From Paucihalobacter ruber (GTDB taxonomy: Bacteria > Bacteroidota > Bacteroidia > Flavobacteriales > Flavobacteriaceae), in the NCBI RefSeq assembly GCF_006494535.1, contig NZ_VHIQ01000007.1, positions 62,001 through 126,000 of the forward strand: a DNA stretch of 64,000 bases. The letters run 5' to 3'. The position numbers were made by a program, and so were the translations under genes. Below are positions 14,625-61,139 of this stretch, piece after piece. Position 1 is the stretch's first letter, and each line of letters starts with the position of its first letter. The notes beneath the pieces were generated by a model. The model had not been told where the DNA came from. It did not search any database and was given only the letters and a program-made list of their open reading frames with translations.

Positions 14625-16553
14625 ATGAATAAACTAAAGTTTCATATTCTTTTTTTAATCCTTTTTTTGGGATGGTCTTGTAAAAACGAAACATCCCAAA
14701 ACACAGCAATTGATGAGGTTTCAGCCGAAGTCGAAATTTATAACGACATCAATCGTGTGGAGCCGCCCAACTGGTGGACCGGGTTTAAGTCTAATAAGCT
14801 ACAATTGTTGGTACAACACGACAATATTGGTACTGCAACACCATCGGTAAAGGCCAATGGCATTTCACTTGTTGAAGTTCATAAAGCTGATAGTCCCAAT
14901 TATTTGTTTTTAGATTTAAATATCGAACCAAATGCTAAGGCGGGCAATTTTAATTTAGTTTTCACCTTTGATGATCAAACCGAACTGAAACAAACCTATA
15001 CTCTAAAAGAGCGTCAACAAGCCGCAGAAGATTTTATAGGTTTCAACAGTAGCGATGTGATGTACCTCATCACACCCGACCGATTTGCCAATGCCAATCC
15101 TGAAAACGACAGCGTTGAAGGCCTGCACGAAACTGCAGTAGATCGCACCAACGATTACGCTCGACATGGCGGCGATATTGCCGGTATTACTCAACATTTA
15201 GATTACATTGAAAAAATGGGCTTTACCGCCATTTGGCCAAGTCCGCTATTAACCAACGATATGCCTCAAGCATCCTATCACGGTTATGCCATGACCGATT
15301 TTTATGAAGTTGACCCACGTTTCGGAACTTTGGAAGACTATAAAACCTTGGCTTCAGAAGCTAAAAAAAGAGGCATCAAACTGGTGATGGATCAAGTAGC
15401 CAATCATTGTGGCAGCTATCATTGGTGGATGGAAGATTTGCCTTTTAAAGATTGGCTCAACTTTCAAGATGAATTTTTAAAAGGTGAAAAACTAATCACC
15501 TCCAACCACCGCAGAACAGTTAATCAAGATGATTATGCCAGCAAAGCAGACACAGCTTTAATGAGCAAAGGCTGGTTTGTTAGCAGTATGCCCGATTTAA
15601 ATCAGCAAAATCCATTTTTGGCGACTTATCTTATTCAAAACAGTATTTGGTGGGTTGAAACCTTAGCGCTTGGCGGCATTCGTCAGGACACTTATCCTTA
15701 TCCTGATAAAGCATTCATGTCTGATTGGGCCGGTGCCATTATGAACGAATATCCAAACTTCAATATTGTAGGTGAAGAATGGAGTAACAATCCGTTATTG
15801 ATTGCCTACTGGCAACAGGGCGCAAAAAATAAAGACGGTTATGAGTCTAACTTAAAATCTACCATGGATTTTGCCATGAAAGATCATTTAGTTGCCGGAC
15901 TTAAAGAACCTGAAACCTGGGGTACCGGATTGGTAAAAATCTACGACGGCTTGTCCAATGACTTCCACTATCCGTCACCCGAAAATTTATTGGTGTTTCC
16001 CGATAATCACGATATGGATAGGGTTTTTACACAGTTTGATGAAGATATTACTAACACCAAAATGGCCTTGAGTTATATGCTCATGTTACCGCGTATTCCG
16101 CAAATTTATTACGGCACGGAGATCTTAATGCAAAACACCGCCAAACCGGGAGATCACGGCTTAATTAGAACCGATTTTCCGGGAGGTTGGCAAGGCGATG
16201 CCATGAATGCCTTTACCGGAGAAGGTCTATCAGCCGAAGCCTTAGATATGCAGGAATACCTAAAAAAACTATTAAACTATAGAAAGTTATCAAAGGCAAT
16301 TCACGAAGGAAAAACAGTTCATTTTGCACCTGAAAACAATATGTATGTGTTGTTTAGAATACTGGATGCTGAGGTAGTGGTTCACATTTTAAACAAAAAC
16401 GAATCACCGGTTGATTTAGATCTTAGCAGATTTAAAGAATTAGGTTTGGAAGGCAAACGGTTTAGAAACATCATAGAAGGTTATTCGGTAGAATGGAAAG
16501 ATACCTTGAAATTAGAGCAAAAAGGCAGTTATATTTTTAGCACCAGGTTATGA
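14625..16553 (+). CDS. GH13 lipoprotein, SusA-like neopullulanase/cyclomaltodextrinase
   Basis: The product is 642 residues with a lipobox (LGWSC, Cys19). An N-terminal domain with PPNWWTGFKSNKLQLLV is typical of the cyclomaltodextrinase N-terminal family, followed by the GH13 barrel (about 135-540) and a C-terminal beta domain. Catalytic residues are D355 in GIRQDTYPY, E384 in VGEEW and D463 in FPDNHDMDR. SusA-type enzymes cut imported maltooligosaccharides and pullulan in the periplasm. The stop codon overlaps the start of the following esterase by 4 nt, which ties their translation. Confidence 0.9.
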   Translation: MNKLKFHILFLILFLGWSCKNETSQNTAIDEVSAEVEIYNDINRVEPPNWWTGFKSNKLQLLVQHDNIGTATPSVKANGISLVEVHKADSPNYLFLDLNIEPNAKAGNFNLVFTFDDQTELKQTYTLKERQQAAEDFIGFNSSDVMYLITPDRFANANPENDSVEGLHETAVDRTNDYARHGGDIAGITQHLDYIEKMGFTAIWPSPLLTNDMPQASYHGYAMTDFYEVDPRFGTLEDYKTLASEAKKRGIKLVMDQVANHCGSYHWWMEDLPFKDWLNFQDEFLKGEKLITSNHRRTVNQDDYASKADTALMSKGWFVSSMPDLNQQNPFLATYLIQNSIWWVETLALGGIRQDTYPYPDKAFMSDWAGAIMNEYPNFNIVGEEWSNNPLLIAYWQQGAKNKDGYESNLKSTMDFAMKDHLVAGLKEPETWGTGLVKIYDGLSNDFHYPSPENLLVFPDNHDMDRVFTQFDEDITNTKMALSYMLMLPRIPQIYYGTEILMQNTAKPGDHGLIRTDFPGGWQGDAMNAFTGEGLSAEALDMQEYLKKLLNYRKLSKAIHEGKTVHFAPENNMYVLFRILDAEVVVHILNKNESPVDLDLSRFKELGLEGKRFRNIIEGYSVEWKDTLKLEQKGSYIFSTRL

Positions 16554-17521
16554 TGAGAGTAATAACATTATTAATATTAACCTTTATTTTTGTTAGTTGT
16601 AAAAACGAACCAAAAACAGTCGAATCGGCCACCGAATCTTCAAAAATTGAAGTCGGCTTGCTTCAAGAGGCCGTTTTATCTTCGGGGAAATTATACAGAA
16701 TTGAAGCCTTTCCTACTGATTACATTCAACCAAGACCGGTAGATATTTGGCTGCCTGATAATTATTCCAATGCTGAAAAATGCGCAGTGCTCTATATGCA
16801 CGACGGACAAATGTTATTCGATTCTACCACTACCTGGAATCAGCAAGAGTGGAAGGTAGACGAATGGGCTTCAAAACTCATGAGTCAAAACCAAACAAAG
16901 CCCTTTATTGTCGTAGCTGTACACAACATACCGGAGATTAGATGGCTGGATTTGTTTCCTGAAAAAGCTTTTTTAAATATTGAAGCATCAAAACGTCAAG
17001 AACTGCTTGAAAATGGTATGAACAACATGAAAAATGTTTCACTCAATGGTGATAATTATCTTAAGTTTATTGTAGAAGATTTGAAACCGTATATCGATAG
17101 TAACTATTCAGTGTATACCAATGCTGAAAATACTTTTATCGCCGGTTCCAGTATGGGTGGTTTAATGAGTATGTATGCTATTTCAGAATATCCTGAAGTA
17201 TTTAGTGGAGCCGCTTGTTTATCGACGCATTGGCCCGGTGCCATACCAAGTGATGACAGTCTGTTTCCCGATGCTATTTTTAAATACGTAGAGGCCAAAT
17301 TACCACAAGCAGGACATCATAAATTGTATTTTGATTACGGCAATCAAACTTTAGATATACATTATCCGCAATACGCCCCGCGATTAGATGATATTTTAGC
17401 CCAAAAAGGTTATACCGACACAGATGCCAGGAATTTATTTTTTGAAGGAACTGACCATTCAGAAAATTCATGGAATAAAAGATTGGATGTGCCGCTAACT
17501 TTTTTGTTAGGGAAACAATAG
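16550..17521 (+). CDS. Alpha/beta-hydrolase esterase lipoprotein (esterase D/Fes-like)
   Basis: The 323-residue protein has a lipobox (IFVSC) followed by KNEP, and an esterase-family (PF00756-type) fold. YMHDGQMLFD, the nucleophile elbow GSSMGG, and a C-terminal DHSENSW supply Ser and His of the triad. Such enzymes remove acyl or feruloyl groups, or hydrolyse iron-chelator esters. It sits inside the alpha-glucan operon and overlaps the GH13 gene by ATGA, so I infer that it acts on acylated glucans or glucan conjugates in the periplasm or on the surface. The true substrate cannot be read from the sequence. Confidence 0.8.
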   Translation: MMRVITLLILTFIFVSCKNEPKTVESATESSKIEVGLLQEAVLSSGKLYRIEAFPTDYIQPRPVDIWLPDNYSNAEKCAVLYMHDGQMLFDSTTTWNQQEWKVDEWASKLMSQNQTKPFIVVAVHNIPEIRWLDLFPEKAFLNIEASKRQELLENGMNNMKNVSLNGDNYLKFIVEDLKPYIDSNYSVYTNAENTFIAGSSMGGLMSMYAISEYPEVFSGAACLSTHWPGAIPSDDSLFPDAIFKYVEAKLPQAGHHKLYFDYGNQTLDIHYPQYAPRLDDILAQKGYTDTDARNLFFEGTDHSENSWNKRLDVPLTFLLGKQ

Positions 17522-17538
17522 ATTACTAGCAAGATGTC

Positions 17539-17571
17539 AGACCTCACAGGTTTTTAAAACCTGTGAGGTCT
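17539..17571. repeat. REP-like palindrome, copy A
   Basis: Two 16-bp arms (agacctcacaggtttt and its complement) surround a single central T. The identical arms recur at 59085-59117 and 59701-59733 next to a RAYT-type transposase. Here it lies in the 65-bp gap between the esterase and GH31 genes and could also act as a hairpin that affects read-through in the operon. Confidence 0.9.
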
Positions 17572-17586
17572 TTAAAATTGAATTAA

Positions 17587-20010
17587 ATGAAATTAAACAT
17601 TTTATACATCACACTAATTTTCACCTGTTCTGCGCTTTATGGACAAAATGCAAACCGTGATTATAAAAGTGCGGCCTTTGACGGAACCCATTTAACGGTC
17701 GAAGTGAATGACGGTAGGTATTTGTTTAAACCCTATTCTTCAGAAATAATTGAGACCACCTTTGTTCCTTCAAACGAAACTTTTAACCAAAATTCTCATG
17801 CCGTTATATTAGACCCAACCGCTGTTAATGTTAATTATTCTGACGAAGAAAACAACATAAACTTTTCAACACCTAATATATCGGTTATAATCACAAAATC
17901 GCCGTTTCAAATCAGTTACTACTACAATGGTAAAGCATTAATTTCCGAAAAACAAGGCTATTTTAAAAGTTCACATGAACCCATGGAAATGGTTCAGGGT
18001 AATATTGTAGCCGATTCCACCGAAAAAATAGAGTTCAACCTCACTAAAGATGAAGTTTTATACGGTGCAGGCGCCAGAGCTTTGGGGATGAACAGACGTG
18101 GTTTTAGATTACCGCTTTACAACAGAGCACACTATGGTTACGAAACCAAAAGCGAACTCATGAACTTTACCTTGCCAATTGTACTGTCATCAAAGCAATA
18201 CATGATTCACTTTGAGAATGCACCTATTGGATATTTGGATTTAGACAGTAAAGGAAATAATACGCTCGTGTACGAGACTATTTCAGGGCGAAAAACCTAC
18301 CAGATCATTGCCGGTGATACCTGGTATGAAGTCGTTGAAAATTACACGAAATTAACCGGGAAACAGCCCATGCCACCGCGCTGGGCCTTGGGGAACTTTT
18401 CAAGCAGATTTGGTTACCGTTCCCAGTATGAAACAGAAGCAACCATTAAAGCTTTTAAGGATGCCGAAATTCCTGTTGATGCCATTATTCTTGATTTGTA
18501 TTGGTTCGGGAAAGAGGTACAAGGTACCATGGGTAATTTGGAAGTTGACCGTGATTCGTTCCCCGATTTTGAAGGCATGGTCAACAGACTGAAACAGCAA
18601 GGTGTAAAAACCATTCCCATTACCGAACCATTTGTATTAACCACATCAAAGCGCTGGCAGGAAGCCGTTGACAAAGATGTTTTGGCGAAAGATTCCATAG
18701 GTCAGCCATTTACCTACGATTTTTATTTTGGCAACACAGGGTTAATAGATGTTTACAAACCCGAAGCTGAGCAATGGTTCTGGAATATTTACAAAGATTT
18801 AGCCAATAATGGTGTGGCAGGCGTTTGGGGCGATTTGGGTGAACCGGAAGTGCATCCCTCAGGCTTAATTCACCATACTGGTACAGCCGATGAAGTTCAT
18901 AATACCTACGGTCATGACTGGGCGCGTTTGGTGTTTGAAGGATACCAAAGAGATTTCCCTGAGGTTCGTCCGTTTATTTTAATGCGTGCCGGCTATTCGG
19001 GGTCGCAGCGTTACGGACTTATTCCTTGGTCGGGAGATGTTAACAGAACCTGGGGCGGATTGCAAAGTCAACCCGAAATATCCCTTCAAATGGGTATGCA
19101 AGGCCTGGCCTATATGCATAGCGATTTGGGAGGCTTTGCCGGTGCCAATCTCGACGATGAGTTATATGTGCGGTGGTTACAATATGGCGTTTTTCAACCG
19201 GTCTACAGGCCACATGCCCAAGAAGATGTGCCCAGCGAACCTGTTTTTAGAAGCGAAAAAGCCAAAGCATTGGCCAAACAAGCTATCGAACTGCGTTACC
19301 AATTACTGCCTTACAATTATAATCTTGTTTTTGAAAATAATCAAAACGGAACACCCTTAATGCGACCGCTGTTTTTTGAAGATAACAATGAAGTTTTGTT
19401 AACGTATTCAAAATCCTATTTATGGGGCGAAGACATTTTGGTATCGCCTGTTTTGGAAGCAGGATTAACCCAACAGGAAGTGTATTTTCCTTCCGGCAGT
19501 GATTGGGTTGATTTCTATTCGGGCGATATCTATAAAGGTGGCACCACTCAAACTGTTCAATTGGTTGATACTAATATTCCAACCTTTATACGTGCCGGTG
19601 CCTTTATTCCTATGGCACAGCCTATGAGTTCTACCGAGGCCTATAACCCCAATGATTTATCGGTTCATTTTTATTATCATTCTGAATTAGATGAATCAGA
19701 GCGCCAATTTTACAACGACGATGGCAAAACTGCCAACGCCTTTGAAAAAGAAGCTTTCGAAATTTTAGAATTTGAAGCCGAAAAAGACGGCAAATGGCTT
19801 GAAATTGAAATGGAGGCTGAAATAGGAATAAATTTTAAAAGTGAAGACAAACGCATCAAATTAGTAATTCACAATTTAGAAAGGATGCCAAAGCGCATCA
19901 AAATTAAGGGCGAAAAAGTAAATGGTATCTATAATTCAAATGAAAAAACTTTAAGCATTTATACACTTTGGAATATTTCCGAAGAGAAAGAAATAAGAAT
20001 CAAACTTTAA
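17587..20010 (+). CDS. GH31 alpha-glucosidase or alpha-transglucosylase
   Basis: The product is 807 residues with a Sec signal peptide (..SALYGQ) and no lipobox, so it is periplasmic or exported. The order is an N-terminal GH31 beta domain, a barrel from about 255, and C-terminal beta domains. The nucleophile is D416 in WGDLGEPE and the acid/base D484 in WSGDVNRTW. The WGDLGEPE form rather than WxDMNE, and the 68-residue spacing, resemble the Cellvibrio enzyme Agd31B (D412/D480 as I recall), which transfers glucosyl units between oligosaccharides. Plain alpha-glucosidase activity is the other option. Confidence 0.88.
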   Translation: MKLNILYITLIFTCSALYGQNANRDYKSAAFDGTHLTVEVNDGRYLFKPYSSEIIETTFVPSNETFNQNSHAVILDPTAVNVNYSDEENNINFSTPNISVIITKSPFQISYYYNGKALISEKQGYFKSSHEPMEMVQGNIVADSTEKIEFNLTKDEVLYGAGARALGMNRRGFRLPLYNRAHYGYETKSELMNFTLPIVLSSKQYMIHFENAPIGYLDLDSKGNNTLVYETISGRKTYQIIAGDTWYEVVENYTKLTGKQPMPPRWALGNFSSRFGYRSQYETEATIKAFKDAEIPVDAIILDLYWFGKEVQGTMGNLEVDRDSFPDFEGMVNRLKQQGVKTIPITEPFVLTTSKRWQEAVDKDVLAKDSIGQPFTYDFYFGNTGLIDVYKPEAEQWFWNIYKDLANNGVAGVWGDLGEPEVHPSGLIHHTGTADEVHNTYGHDWARLVFEGYQRDFPEVRPFILMRAGYSGSQRYGLIPWSGDVNRTWGGLQSQPEISLQMGMQGLAYMHSDLGGFAGANLDDELYVRWLQYGVFQPVYRPHAQEDVPSEPVFRSEKAKALAKQAIELRYQLLPYNYNLVFENNQNGTPLMRPLFFEDNNEVLLTYSKSYLWGEDILVSPVLEAGLTQQEVYFPSGSDWVDFYSGDIYKGGTTQTVQLVDTNIPTFIRAGAFIPMAQPMSSTEAYNPNDLSVHFYYHSELDESERQFYNDDGKTANAFEKEAFEILEFEAEKDGKWLEIEMEAEIGINFKSEDKRIKLVIHNLERMPKRIKIKGEKVNGIYNSNEKTLSIYTLWNISEEKEIRIKL

Positions 20011-57458: not shown

Positions 57459-59060
57459 TCATTTGTTTTTATTCAAGAAATTCATCAAATTCACATCGTT
57501 ACCAAGTAAAATTTCTTTCGGATTGATACGGTTTTTAAGCGAATCATTTTCCAGTTTTAAAACACCACGCGGACAAACGGCGCTGCAAATACCGCAACCT
57601 ACGCAGCTACTGCGTACAATGTTTTCACCTTTTTGCGCATAAGCACGCACATCAATGCCCATTTCACAGTAGGTAGAACAATTTCCGCACGAAATACATT
57701 GACCGCCATTGGTTGTAATTCTAAATTTTGAAAACATGCGTTGCTGAAATCCCAAAATGGCAGCCAATGGGCAACCCATGCGGCACCAAACGCGATTCCC
57801 AAATATGGGATAAAATCCGGTGCCAATTACTCCCGAAAATATCGAACCAATCAAAAAGCCGTAAGTGGTGCGGAGTGTTTCTTTTTCAAAAAGAAAAAGT
57901 TTGCTGCCGTCACTAAATACGTGTAAACCAATTAAAGCCATAATTATTACAAAATAGCCAATGGCACCCAGTTTGGCATCTTTGCCCAATTCGTGACGTT
58001 TAAAAATCATGGTTCCTGCAAAAACAAGGGTGAGTAAAACTGCCACTAAGGTTAGAAACACTGGTTTGGTAAGCCAATATTTTGTATTATCAACACCCAA
58101 ATAAGAGTAAATAACAGCTGTAGTCATTAACACCACAAATACCAGAACACTGTGAATTACCCAACGCTCAACCTTCCAGGCAAACTGGCGTTTATCACTT
58201 AAATGACGAAAAGCATCGCCGGCGGTTTCAGCCAAGCCGCCACATCCGCAAACCCATGAACAATACCAGCGTTTTCCGTATTTATAGGTTAGATAAGGCG
58301 TTATTACAAAAATAGAAGCCACGCCGAAAATTAACAAAGCTATGCCTATATTTCCAGCGCTGATAAATTCGTCTACTCTGTATTTCTCGAAGTTGTAATA
58401 ATTTAAAGGCCAGATGTTTTTTAAATCGTAATAAGGCAGTTTAAAGGAATCTGAATTTAATCTTGCCATCAACTCCGGGATTAAAAAGGCAAAGCCCAAT
58501 TGAAAAAACATCACCGAAATGGTTCGCAATTGCTGGTATTTACTATGACGGTATTTCAATATAAATTTATAACCAAAACCCAGAATAGCCAAGGTATACA
58601 AAGTACCGTAAACAAACCATTGGCTGGCCGGATTACCACTTAATAATTTACTTAACGGATCAAAAAAGGCTACCAAACCAGTGTTTTCAGCACCATTTTT
58701 ACCTAAACCAAGGTATTGCGGATAAAAATACAGCACAATATAAAAAGCGGTTAGAGCAACTCCGGTTAAATAGCCTAAAACACCACGATTTGAAATGGAT
58801 TTAAACCAAACACCATCGTTTTTAATACCTTCTAATTTATTGAGGTAGGCTTGGTTAGAAAACCACACAATGCCTAGGGTTAATAATATAAGAGAAGTGG
58901 TTAAGACCAATGGTTTATTGGGCATGTTCATGTTTAATAATGCCAAAACCAAAATAAATAATCCCACAAGACCAATAGCCAACGCTATTTTTTGTTTGGT
59001 GTTGATGGCGTTGGTATCGGGATTTGAAAGTGATAAACTGTGATTTATTTTTAGGCTCAT
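57459..59060 (-). CDS. Polyferredoxin-type membrane protein with 4Fe-4S clusters
   Basis: The 533-residue protein has about 8-10 hydrophobic segments, the NapH/NosR-type cytoplasmic motifs CSWVCGCGGL and CRMGCPLA, and two C-terminal ferredoxin-type clusters (CISCGNCSTYC and CVGCGICSAVC). Such proteins pass electrons at the inner membrane. Its probable partner, the FAD oxidoreductase, lies just upstream but is separated by a RAYT transposase with REP palindromes. Confidence 0.88.
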   Translation of the reverse strand: MSLKINHSLSLSNPDTNAINTKQKIALAIGLVGLFILVLALLNMNMPNKPLVLTTSLILLTLGIVWFSNQAYLNKLEGIKNDGVWFKSISNRGVLGYLTGVALTAFYIVLYFYPQYLGLGKNGAENTGLVAFFDPLSKLLSGNPASQWFVYGTLYTLAILGFGYKFILKYRHSKYQQLRTISVMFFQLGFAFLIPELMARLNSDSFKLPYYDLKNIWPLNYYNFEKYRVDEFISAGNIGIALLIFGVASIFVITPYLTYKYGKRWYCSWVCGCGGLAETAGDAFRHLSDKRQFAWKVERWVIHSVLVFVVLMTTAVIYSYLGVDNTKYWLTKPVFLTLVAVLLTLVFAGTMIFKRHELGKDAKLGAIGYFVIIMALIGLHVFSDGSKLFLFEKETLRTTYGFLIGSIFSGVIGTGFYPIFGNRVWCRMGCPLAAILGFQQRMFSKFRITTNGGQCISCGNCSTYCEMGIDVRAYAQKGENIVRSSCVGCGICSAVCPRGVLKLENDSLKNRINPKEILLGNDVNLMNFLNKNK

Positions 59061-59084: not shown

Positions 59085-59117
59085 AGACCTCACAGGTTTT
59101 AAAAACCTGTGAGGTCT
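59085..59117. repeat. REP-like palindrome, copy B
   Basis: The 16-bp arms match copies A and C exactly, with A rather than T at the centre, so its orientation is opposite. It lies between the polyferredoxin start and the RAYT stop codon. Confidence 0.92.
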
Positions 59118-59127
59118 TTAATTTTTG

Positions 59128-59673
59128 CTATTCCAATATATATTTTTCTAATATACTTGTGTTTTTACTTTGATGAACAAATTCAAAATTTTTCCGATCA
59201 TCAAACAAGCTTAGAACAAATTCCCGATCTAATTCTGTTGGTTTTTTCGATGTCATACTATGGTATGAACTGTATTTGTATGTTCTAAAATCGGTTGTAA
59301 ACCCATGATGAGTCGGGTTAGTGTGCACATAAATAATAATAGATTGTAAGTATGTTTCATCTTCAATTTTTATTCTTGAAAACTGGTCTTTAAATAAGCT
59401 GCCACTTCTATGGTATCTTTTATTAATTGCTTTTGCATAGGCATTGAAAAGATTTGAAAAGGACCTGGATAAATTGTTATCAGACGTATCTGGTTTTGTT
59501 TTTACAATTAAATGAAAGTGATTTTTTATTAAATCCATCGAATTTAAAAGATGTTTTTTTATCAGAGACAAGAAATAGATGTAGTTATCTTCCTCTATAA
59601 ATAAATTTTCCTTGTTGTTTCCACAATTATAAATATGAAAATAGGCATCTGGAGTTATTGGTTCGTATTTCAT
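59128..59673 (-). CDS. REP-associated tyrosine transposase (RAYT, IS200-like Y1 family)
   Basis: The 181-residue protein has the HUH motif HFH (H52-F53-H54 in NHFHLIVKT), the typical KAINKRYHRSGSLFKDQF, and the nucleophilic Tyr, probably Y115 in IIIYVHTNPTHHGF. The part before HFH looks a few residues shorter than in usual relatives (compare ..LMPNHFHLL), a possible small deletion. It is bracketed by two inverted REP palindromes (59085 and 59701). RAYTs act on such single-strand hairpins. Confidence 0.92.
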   Translation of the reverse strand: MKYEPITPDAYFHIYNCGNNKENLFIEEDNYIYFLSLIKKHLLNSMDLIKNHFHLIVKTKPDTSDNNLSRSFSNLFNAYAKAINKRYHRSGSLFKDQFSRIKIEDETYLQSIIIYVHTNPTHHGFTTDFRTYKYSSYHSMTSKKPTELDREFVLSLFDDRKNFEFVHQSKNTSILEKYILE

Positions 59674-59700
59674 GAATACATCGAGTTAAATTTCCTTTTT

Positions 59701-59733
59701 AGACCTCACAGGTTTTTAAAACCTGTGAGGTCT
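59701..59733. repeat. REP-like palindrome, copy C
   Basis: It has the same 16-bp arms with a central T, as in copy A. It lies 27 bp upstream of the RAYT start codon and could be part of its promoter region. A diverged half copy (aaacctgtgagatc) lies at 59816-59829, next to the end of the FAD oxidoreductase gene. Confidence 0.92.
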
Positions 59734-59815
59734 TTGATTAGCGTTTGTTATCAGTTATATTTTTATTTATGTTTTATTTAATTTGAAATTAAATTATGTA
59801 AATAATTTGATATTC

Positions 59816-59829
59816 AAACCTGTGAGATC
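59816..59829. repeat. Half copy of the REP palindrome
   Basis: aaacctgtgagatc matches the right arm of the full REP with one change. It suggests an older, decayed insertion at the same place. Confidence 0.6.
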
Positions 59830-59840
59830 ACATTTATTTC

Positions 59841-61139
59841 TTAGGCTTCTTCCTTTAATTTTTGATAATAACTTCGTATGTCATTTTCATATCGTTTGTA
59901 AAACTCAGGATCAAAATTGGCTTCAGATAAATGTTCGATTACAAAATCGACTGTATGTTCTTCGGTTAACCATCGGTCAAATACCTCATGGCGCATTCTA
60001 ATTCCGAAGGTGTTAATACCTTCAAACTTATTAGATGATAGATTGTATTCAATAGTAATACAGAGATTTTCTGAAGGATGTTTCCAATGAAAATGAGTAT
60101 TTCCGTCTTTTGGTTCGGCAAACACCCAACCATAGGTTTGGTATTCGATGTCTAGAAATTTGGCCGAGTTAAACCAATGTCCGGGATTGTAAGCTGTTTT
60201 ATTACCGCAAATAGTTTGCGCAAGCGCTTCGCCCATCATACGGCCGGTGTACCAAACCGCTTCAATGGGTCTACGATTGCCAATGGCTTCGCGTTGTTCG
60301 GCGCAATCACCTATGGCGTACACATCGGGCACCGAGGTTTCAAGAAACCGATTTACCAAAACACCGCGATTTAAATCAATTTTACCTGACCTTAAAAAAT
60401 CGATATTTGGCGAAACACCGGCCGTTAATCCAACAAAATCACATGCTAATTCTTCGCCGGTTTCGTCGATGATCACCGATTTTGCATGACCATTTTCATC
60501 AGAAATAATGGCTTTTAGATTGCTTGATAATCGCAAGTCTATATGATGGTCAATAATATGCTGATTGATCATTTCGCTTTCACCTTTGGGCAATACGCCA
60601 TTCCAGAAACTGTTTTCTCTAACCAAGAAGGTTACCGGAATATCGCGGGTGCGCAGCATTTCGGCCAATTCAATGCCTATCAAGCCGCCACCAACAATCA
60701 CCGCGCGTTTACAAAGGTCTTTGTTGGGCGCATATACTTCTAAATTATCTAAGTCTTGTTTGTGATACAAGCCTTGCACCCCTTTTAACTCTTGTCCGGG
60801 CCAGCCAAATTTATTGGGTTTACTTCCGGTAGCGATAATGAGTTTGTCGTAGTTGAAGGTTTCATTTCCCGATAGTTTTAGGCATTTGTTATCGGTATCA
60901 ACACTTTCAACAAAGGCTTTTTTAAGCTCGATTCGGCTTTTTTGCCAAAACCAGTTTTCGTAGGGTTGTGTGTGTTCAAATTTCATATGACCCATATACA
61001 CATACATCAAGGCTGTACGCGAGAAAAAATAATCGGTTTCTGCTGAAATTATGGTGATTTGATGATTTGAGTTTTTACGAATATGCCGCGCTGCGGTAAC
61101 ACCCGCAATGCCGTTTCCAATAATAACAATATGATTCAT
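59841..61139 (-). CDS. FAD-dependent pyridine nucleotide-disulfide-type oxidoreductase
   Basis: The 432-residue protein has the FAD motif GNGIAGVTAARHI (7-19), the ATGSKPNKF region, the NAD motif GGGLIGIELAEML, and the C-terminal FAD-contact VYAIGDCAEQ. It resembles NAD(P)H-nitrite reductase or rubredoxin reductase-like enzymes, though the redox Cys pair is absent. The extra C-terminal part, from about 320, is unusual. A shared operon with the polyferredoxin was probably split by the RAYT insertion. Confidence 0.86.
   Translation of the reverse strand: MNHIVIIGNGIAGVTAARHIRKNSNHQITIISAETDYFFSRTALMYVYMGHMKFEHTQPYENWFWQKSRIELKKAFVESVDTDNKCLKLSGNETFNYDKLIIATGSKPNKFGWPGQELKGVQGLYHKQDLDNLEVYAPNKDLCKRAVIVGGGLIGIELAEMLRTRDIPVTFLVRENSFWNGVLPKGESEMINQHIIDHHIDLRLSSNLKAIISDENGHAKSVIIDETGEELACDFVGLTAGVSPNIDFLRSGKIDLNRGVLVNRFLETSVPDVYAIGDCAEQREAIGNRRPIEAVWYTGRMMGEALAQTICGNKTAYNPGHWFNSAKFLDIEYQTYGWVFAEPKDGNTHFHWKHPSENLCITIEYNLSSNKFEGINTFGIRMRHEVFDRWLTEEHTVDFVIEHLSEANFDPEFYKRYENDIRSYYQKLKEEA

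Follow-up and report, generated by a model that had tools for sequence, protein, structure and literature searches.

TnpAREP has been termed the first domesticated transposase of prokaryotes (PMC8266576). The REPs that go with such proteins (RAYTs) are usually present in more than 100 copies per genome (PMC2817692). E. coli REPs have a GTAG tag and a bulge, and the RAYTs that have been studied use GTAG in recognition and, for one of them, also in selecting the cut site (PMC8266576). Two of the described subclasses bear on the present locus. Subclass 2.6, which corresponds to RAYT group 5 of Bertels, belongs to Bacteroidota, has a median length of 179 aa and has flanking hairpins without GT[AG]G, termed weak and atypical structures (Quentin et al., 2018; PMC6006769). 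Its characters include a median HuH-to-Tyr spacing of 82 residues and an alphaC-beta4 insertion. Subclass 2.4 (Bertels group 4) is found in Cyanobacteria and Bacteroidota, and a REP within the RAYT frame is reported to be unique to it (PMC6006769).

The locus described here lies in a 64,000-nucleotide stretch of DNA (the window) from a Flavobacteriaceae genome of 3.54 Mb (19 contigs, 99.9% complete). We hold, with a probability of about 0.77, that it represents a REPtron, a REP/RAYT unit resident in its genome, with a TnpAREP of the Bacteroidota type, derived from an old, single insertion at a gene junction, inherited in place and repeatedly lost. By published description, the nearest described group is subclass 2.6, a candidate for the locus. 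The likeness extends to the phylum, the length (181 aa), an NH[LIV]H-like HuH motif, a Y-H-NP tyrosine motif with conserved serines after it, tagless flanking hairpins with copies elsewhere in the genome, and guide-binding W-Q residues that are not conserved. The differences are a HuH-to-Tyr spacing of about 61 residues in the clade of the window RAYT, against a median of 82, and perfect 33-bp palindromes instead of weak, atypical structures. With subclass 2.4 the locus shares palindrome feet that are complementary to each other ("double foot"-like), and four relatives (L096–L098 and L103) carry a REP inside the RAYT reading frame; the feet, however, are AGAC/GTCT rather than GT[AG]G/C[TC]AC, and the WQ motif is absent. 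These in-frame REPs (L096:3200-3228, L097:3180-3212, L098:3204-3236 and L103:3170-3202) fall between the HuH and tyrosine motifs, occur in Bacteroidota and in an Anaerolineae genome, and encode peptides such as LQGFQNLEG and KTSDFFKKSDV. The E. coli TnpAREP (4ER8, bound to its REP hairpin) has the same fold, catalytic residues and bracketing by REPs, but is only 13% identical, and the palindromes here lack the GTAG tag.

The RAYT and its palindromes

The features of the locus, in window coordinates, are as follows.

57459..59060, minus strand: downstream host gene, membrane 4Fe-4S protein (Pfam Fer4 families)
59085..59117, no strand: REP palindrome 3′ of the RAYT, centre A (sequence read directly)
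59128..59673, minus strand: RAYT (TnpAREP-like HuH/Y1 transposase), 181 aa, single copy (ORF, profiles, AF2 fold)
59329..59331, minus strand: Y115, catalytic tyrosine, in the motif YVHTNP (column invariant in alignment A1)
59512..59523, minus strand: HuH motif NHFH, residues 51-54 (N, H and H columns invariant in A1)
59532..59533, minus strand: site of five missing residues, ILSYC in relatives (alignment A1 and strand lengths in models)
59701..59733, no strand: REP palindrome 5′ of the RAYT, centre T (sequence read directly)
59815..59829, minus strand: half REP, a few bp beyond the oxidoreductase stop, where relatives have the 5′ REP
59841..61139, minus strand: upstream host gene, pyridine nucleotide-disulphide oxidoreductase (Pfam Pyr_redox_2, 177 bits)
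17539..17571, no strand: solo REP separating two genes of the alpha-glucan operon, shared in position with G199, a genome of another genus

The 3′ palindrome reads AGACCTCACAGGTTTT-A-AAAACCTGTGAGGTCT on the plus strand, a perfect 33-bp palindrome with 16-bp arms. The 5′ copy and the remote copy have identical arms and are equally perfect, both with a central T (on the plus strand in the 5′ copy). The half copy, GATCTCACAGGTTTG, has two mismatches and is probably the decayed remains of the original 5′ REP. Direct reading has therefore confirmed the layout given in the original prediction: a Y1 reading frame flanked by palindromes, a third copy far away and a half copy. The window holds exactly three perfect palindromes with arms of at least 12 bp around a centre of 1 or 3 nt; from base composition, about 4e-5 perfect palindromes with 16-bp arms would be expected by chance per 64 kb.

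A search of the whole genome for the arm-centre-arm pattern, with up to three mismatches allowed, found nine full copies, so the further copies that had been anticipated do exist; at the same tolerance the reversed control pattern had zero matches in the whole genome. Nine full copies, even with the several half or decayed ones also present, are far below the number usual for REPs. All four bases occur at the centre. We rejected the idea that the opposite centre bases of the two flanking copies signal orientation or flipping, because C and G occur often at the centre, so that opposite centres are nothing special, and because the central base at the orthologous site of the solo REP differs between two genomes, T against A. 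As the perfect palindromes have no orientation, the bracketing REPs cannot be scored as inverted or direct.

The tetranucleotide GT[AG]G is absent from the 33-bp palindrome and its foot, as reported for subclass 2.6 (PMC6006769). Since GTAG is what the studied RAYTs use, another recognition or cut signal must act in the absence of the GTRG tag, and the AGAC/GTCT foot is perhaps a candidate.

The RAYT reading frame is intact. Its protein matches Pfam Y1_Tnp at 22.1 bits, just below the cut-off of 23, and NCBIfam REP_Tyr_transpos at 44.7 bits, below the cut-off of 80; a sequence search of the PDB and a search of PHROGs gave no match for it. The AlphaFold (AF2) model has a pLDDT of 83.9, and in a model search its best PDB fold match is 4ER8 (E 2.5e-5), with the IS200/IS608/ISDra2 transposases ranking below it. 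The weak REP_Tyr_transpos match, the fold and the dispersed palindromes together support the earlier proposal of a RAYT with its own REP family. That the locus is instead an insertion sequence of the IS200/IS605 type whose hairpins are subterminal is highly improbable. The HuH/Y1 fold is common to the transposases of IS608 and ISDra2, which also have hairpin ends, but the fold of the window protein is closer to 4ER8 than to these. They belong to true mobile elements, for which several near-identical whole units would be expected, whereas the genome has one RAYT copy in a protein search at E ≤ 0.001 (its other Y1 genes are distant), at a fixed locus and with solo REPs dispersed elsewhere. A second, distant Y1 protein of the same genome (L164, G000:C1:147798 region, 211 codons) adjoins a palindrome at 2108-2143 of that locus, a GGGGCGACTC/GAGTCGCC inverted repeat that resembles TIRYT ends.

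In alignment A1, which holds 32 sequences (the window RAYT and 31 relatives), every sequence has both HuH histidines and Tyr115; the hydrophobic position of the HuH motif varies. The window RAYT is without five residues between positions 47 and 48 (ILSYC or similar) that are present in all 31 relatives. These residues belong to the conserved strand leading into the HuH motif, which has four residues in the window model vs. eight in a low-confidence model of a relative. The window copy may be catalytically impaired. In the region of guide contact it reads LFKDQF, and the relatives LFxxxF or LFE/Q; the canonical W-Q is absent.

Palindrome and RAYT across the family

A clear relative of the RAYT is found in 45 of the 299 genomes of the family (50 at E ≤ 0.001), and 39 named RAYT loci were taken from genome contigs. 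Among 80 related loci a palindrome stands beside the RAYT on at least one side in 69 and on both sides in 43. Counted by flank, 112 of 160 real flanks have a palindrome vs. 1 of 1600 shuffled ones. The palindrome mostly conserves its 33-bp size, the AGAC/GTCT feet and a T-run/A-run top. Its core varies by RAYT clade: CTCACAGG in the clade of the window RAYT and CTAACAGG, CTGTCAGG/CTGCAAGG, CTTCAAGG and others in other clades. Arm similarity follows protein similarity (Mantel r 0.62, permutation maximum 0.29), a correlation to which shared descent contributes. Pairing is thus seen without a GTAG tag, and the rules of guide use and recognition can be tested on natural core variants. The putative cognate sequence of the window RAYT as a single strand is AGACCTCACAGGTTTTNAAAACCTGTGAGGTCT; the natural core triplets are CAC (in the window), AAC, GTC, GCA and TCA.

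The pairing also holds at the level of genomes. A generic palindrome is present in 34 of the 45 genomes with a RAYT vs. 23 of the 254 without one (OR 31, p 3e-20, the 299 family genomes each being treated as independent). The original prediction took copies in relatives lacking this RAYT family as evidence against itself. Such copies do occur, in the 23 genomes, but the association overall is still very strong. The 3.9 Mb, single-contig genome G209 has 27 palindrome copies and no Y1 gene was found in it; exceptions of this type look like orphaned REP populations.

It is improbable that the palindromes are mere bidirectional terminators or mRNA-end hairpins that lie near the gene by chance and are unrelated to the RAYT. 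The hairpins are certainly strong, about −24 kcal/mol whichever strand is considered, and all the solo copies whose context was examined are intergenic. Chance proximity, however, conflicts with bracketing of RAYTs that is family-wide and far exceeds the random level, with a palindrome sequence that shifts with the RAYT clade, and with palindrome presence that tracks RAYT presence among genomes.

Two further observations concern the palindromes of relatives. In flanks of L046, L071, L078 and L089 and at the L132 junction, some REPs have their centre interrupted, either by an extra short hairpin or by unrelated sequence such as TCCCGAAGCGTCGGGA, the arms being kept. In Oscillatoriales and Tychonema (L101, L102 and L105), cyanobacterial relatives of the RAYT lie beside several AGAAACCGGGTTTCT-type palindromes.

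The junction and its occupants

The RAYT sits between the oxidoreductase and 4Fe-4S genes. In 27 sampled genomes that lack the RAYT these genes are adjacent, mostly a few tens of bp apart. The junction is clean in 26 of them; in the other one (G157) a lone REP-like remnant is left. When the junction is occupied, the gap is about 700–780 bp and its ends are marked by REPs. The RAYT is found at the same junction and in the same orientation in Bizionia, Mariniflexile, five Gelidibacter loci, Winogradskyella, Psychroflexus and several metagenome genomes; in the only other genome of the window's own genus, a search for the 4Fe-4S gene gave no match. RAYT distances track the distances of the neighboring genes (Mantel r 0.77, with none of 5000 permutations as high). 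Stop codons inside Gelidibacter copies of the RAYT, together with the G157 remnant, are loss under way. A single junction, compared among genera, therefore shows empty site, occupied site, decay in place and a lone-REP scar, and RAYT gain and loss become directly testable beyond gammaproteobacteria.

The solo REP at 17539 is also shared. The same place in the operon is occupied in G199, with 82% DNA identity over 4 kb, and the centre is A, not T. Gelidibacter too carries a REP in that alpha-glucan junction, which is tight in most genomes. Between window positions 16040–20000 and G199:C16 (L185, L186), which are 82% identical in DNA, one protein is 92% identical; the 4Fe-4S protein of the two genomes is just 60% identical. 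From these sequence comparisons, horizontal transfer of the alpha-glucan operon between the window genome and the genus of G199, REP included, is likely.

The shared junction, the co-divergence with neighbors, the decay in place and the conserved solo-REP site are why we favor an old resident over a mover. The suggestion that the pair is still able to move has thus found no support: the RAYT is a single copy, stands at one conserved junction across genera with neighbors that co-diverge, has its third REP at an orthologous junction in another genus, and encodes a protein without five residues of a strand. An active element that re-inserts with a preference for this site, and so recurs at the same junction in many genera, remains an unlikely reading, for which some observations do speak. 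The empty sites are clean, and presence of the RAYT on the tree of the neighboring genes is patchy, requiring 10 changes, at least seven of them forced. So many changes call for a great number of losses, for transfer by recombination or for insertion at the junction more than once; losses, at any rate, must be frequent. The changes also count against the resident unit, as do the conflict between RAYT tree and host tree at L089 and L090, the REPs kept by some RAYT-less genomes and the missing GTRG tag, by which studied RAYTs direct their cutting. The sister clade of these RAYTs (Polaribacter, Algibacter, Jejuia) occupies another operon junction; its one member examined has a type III polyketide synthase-like gene on one side of the RAYT and a FabA-like gene on the other. 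The unit must therefore have moved on at least a few occasions in the past. Against continued activity are the agreement between RAYT and neighbor-gene distances, the want of a second copy in the genome, the pseudogenes in place and the lone-REP remnant, which point to loss, and the deletion that the window copy has beside its HuH motif.

For the resident unit that we prefer, the course of events would be as follows. One REP–RAYT–REP insertion of about 700 bp would have entered the short oxidoreductase/4Fe-4S junction along the direction of the operon, before the divergence of several present-day genera, and would afterwards have been inherited in place with repeated loss. Both neighbors share the direction of the RAYT in 54 of the 66 loci examined. 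By analogy with the RAYTs of E. coli and Stenotrophomonas, the protein would bind the hairpin that the palindrome forms as a single strand, and would cut and rejoin it through Tyr115, and past events of this kind may have scattered the nine or so solo REPs. Being intergenic and able to form strong hairpins, the solo REPs probably serve, in addition, as mRNA-end or operon-spacing hairpins. The unit itself would no longer transpose.

RAYT fusions to HemF

The locus in the window is of a known kind, a RAYT/REP pair; the most interesting part is what related RAYTs have become. In 12 of the 299 family genomes (L140–L151; e.g., L147:2713-4185) an in-frame fusion joins the RAYT to HemF, the coproporphyrinogen III oxidase, and this is the new finding here. 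The fused frame has 490–553 codons, with the RAYT N-terminal and HemF C-terminal (Pfam PF01218, about 444–457 bits), and is the sole HemF of the genome in all 12. Nine of the 12 fusions have a palindrome at the junction or within the linker, and the REP there encodes linker peptides such as DLSGFENLTG, DLQGFENLAG and similar ones. The palindrome scan found none at the junction or linker of L142, L143 and L144; the L142 linker nevertheless reads DLQGFKNLAG. The CAC core of the window has a stop codon in the linker reading frame. The native start of HemF has become an Ile, Thr, Val or Leu codon in eight of the 12 fusions, and an internal ATG is kept in four. In L141 the fused RAYT has lost the first HuH histidine (NQFH). 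The model of a fusion, from which the eight-residue strand before the HuH motif was taken, is of low confidence (pLDDT 62), as is its linker.

To judge from the reading frame, a single RAYT–HemF protein would be made. We lean towards the view that Bacteroidota RAYTs have been captured by their hosts, by lodging at operon junctions along the direction of transcription and, in one clade, as the N-terminal domain of the sole HemF, mostly linked by a REP. A transposase-like domain is then joined physically to the only copy of a haem enzyme, mostly via a REP-encoded peptide. If the capture holds, HemF is made only as RAYT–HemF, which ties haem synthesis to a nuclease domain acting on single-stranded DNA; at the minimum, the RAYT becomes undeletable.

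Long HemF frames outside the family were considered as further RAYT fusions and rejected: three have no recognizable domain, and four have a DUF559-like nuclease domain. The four (L242, L245, L246 and L247) are from another Bacteroidota family, and their N-terminal domain, named by sequence appearance, is joined to HemF by a linker reading ...PPAPPSKGD.... Judged on sequence, this is a second, independent joining of a nuclease to HemF.
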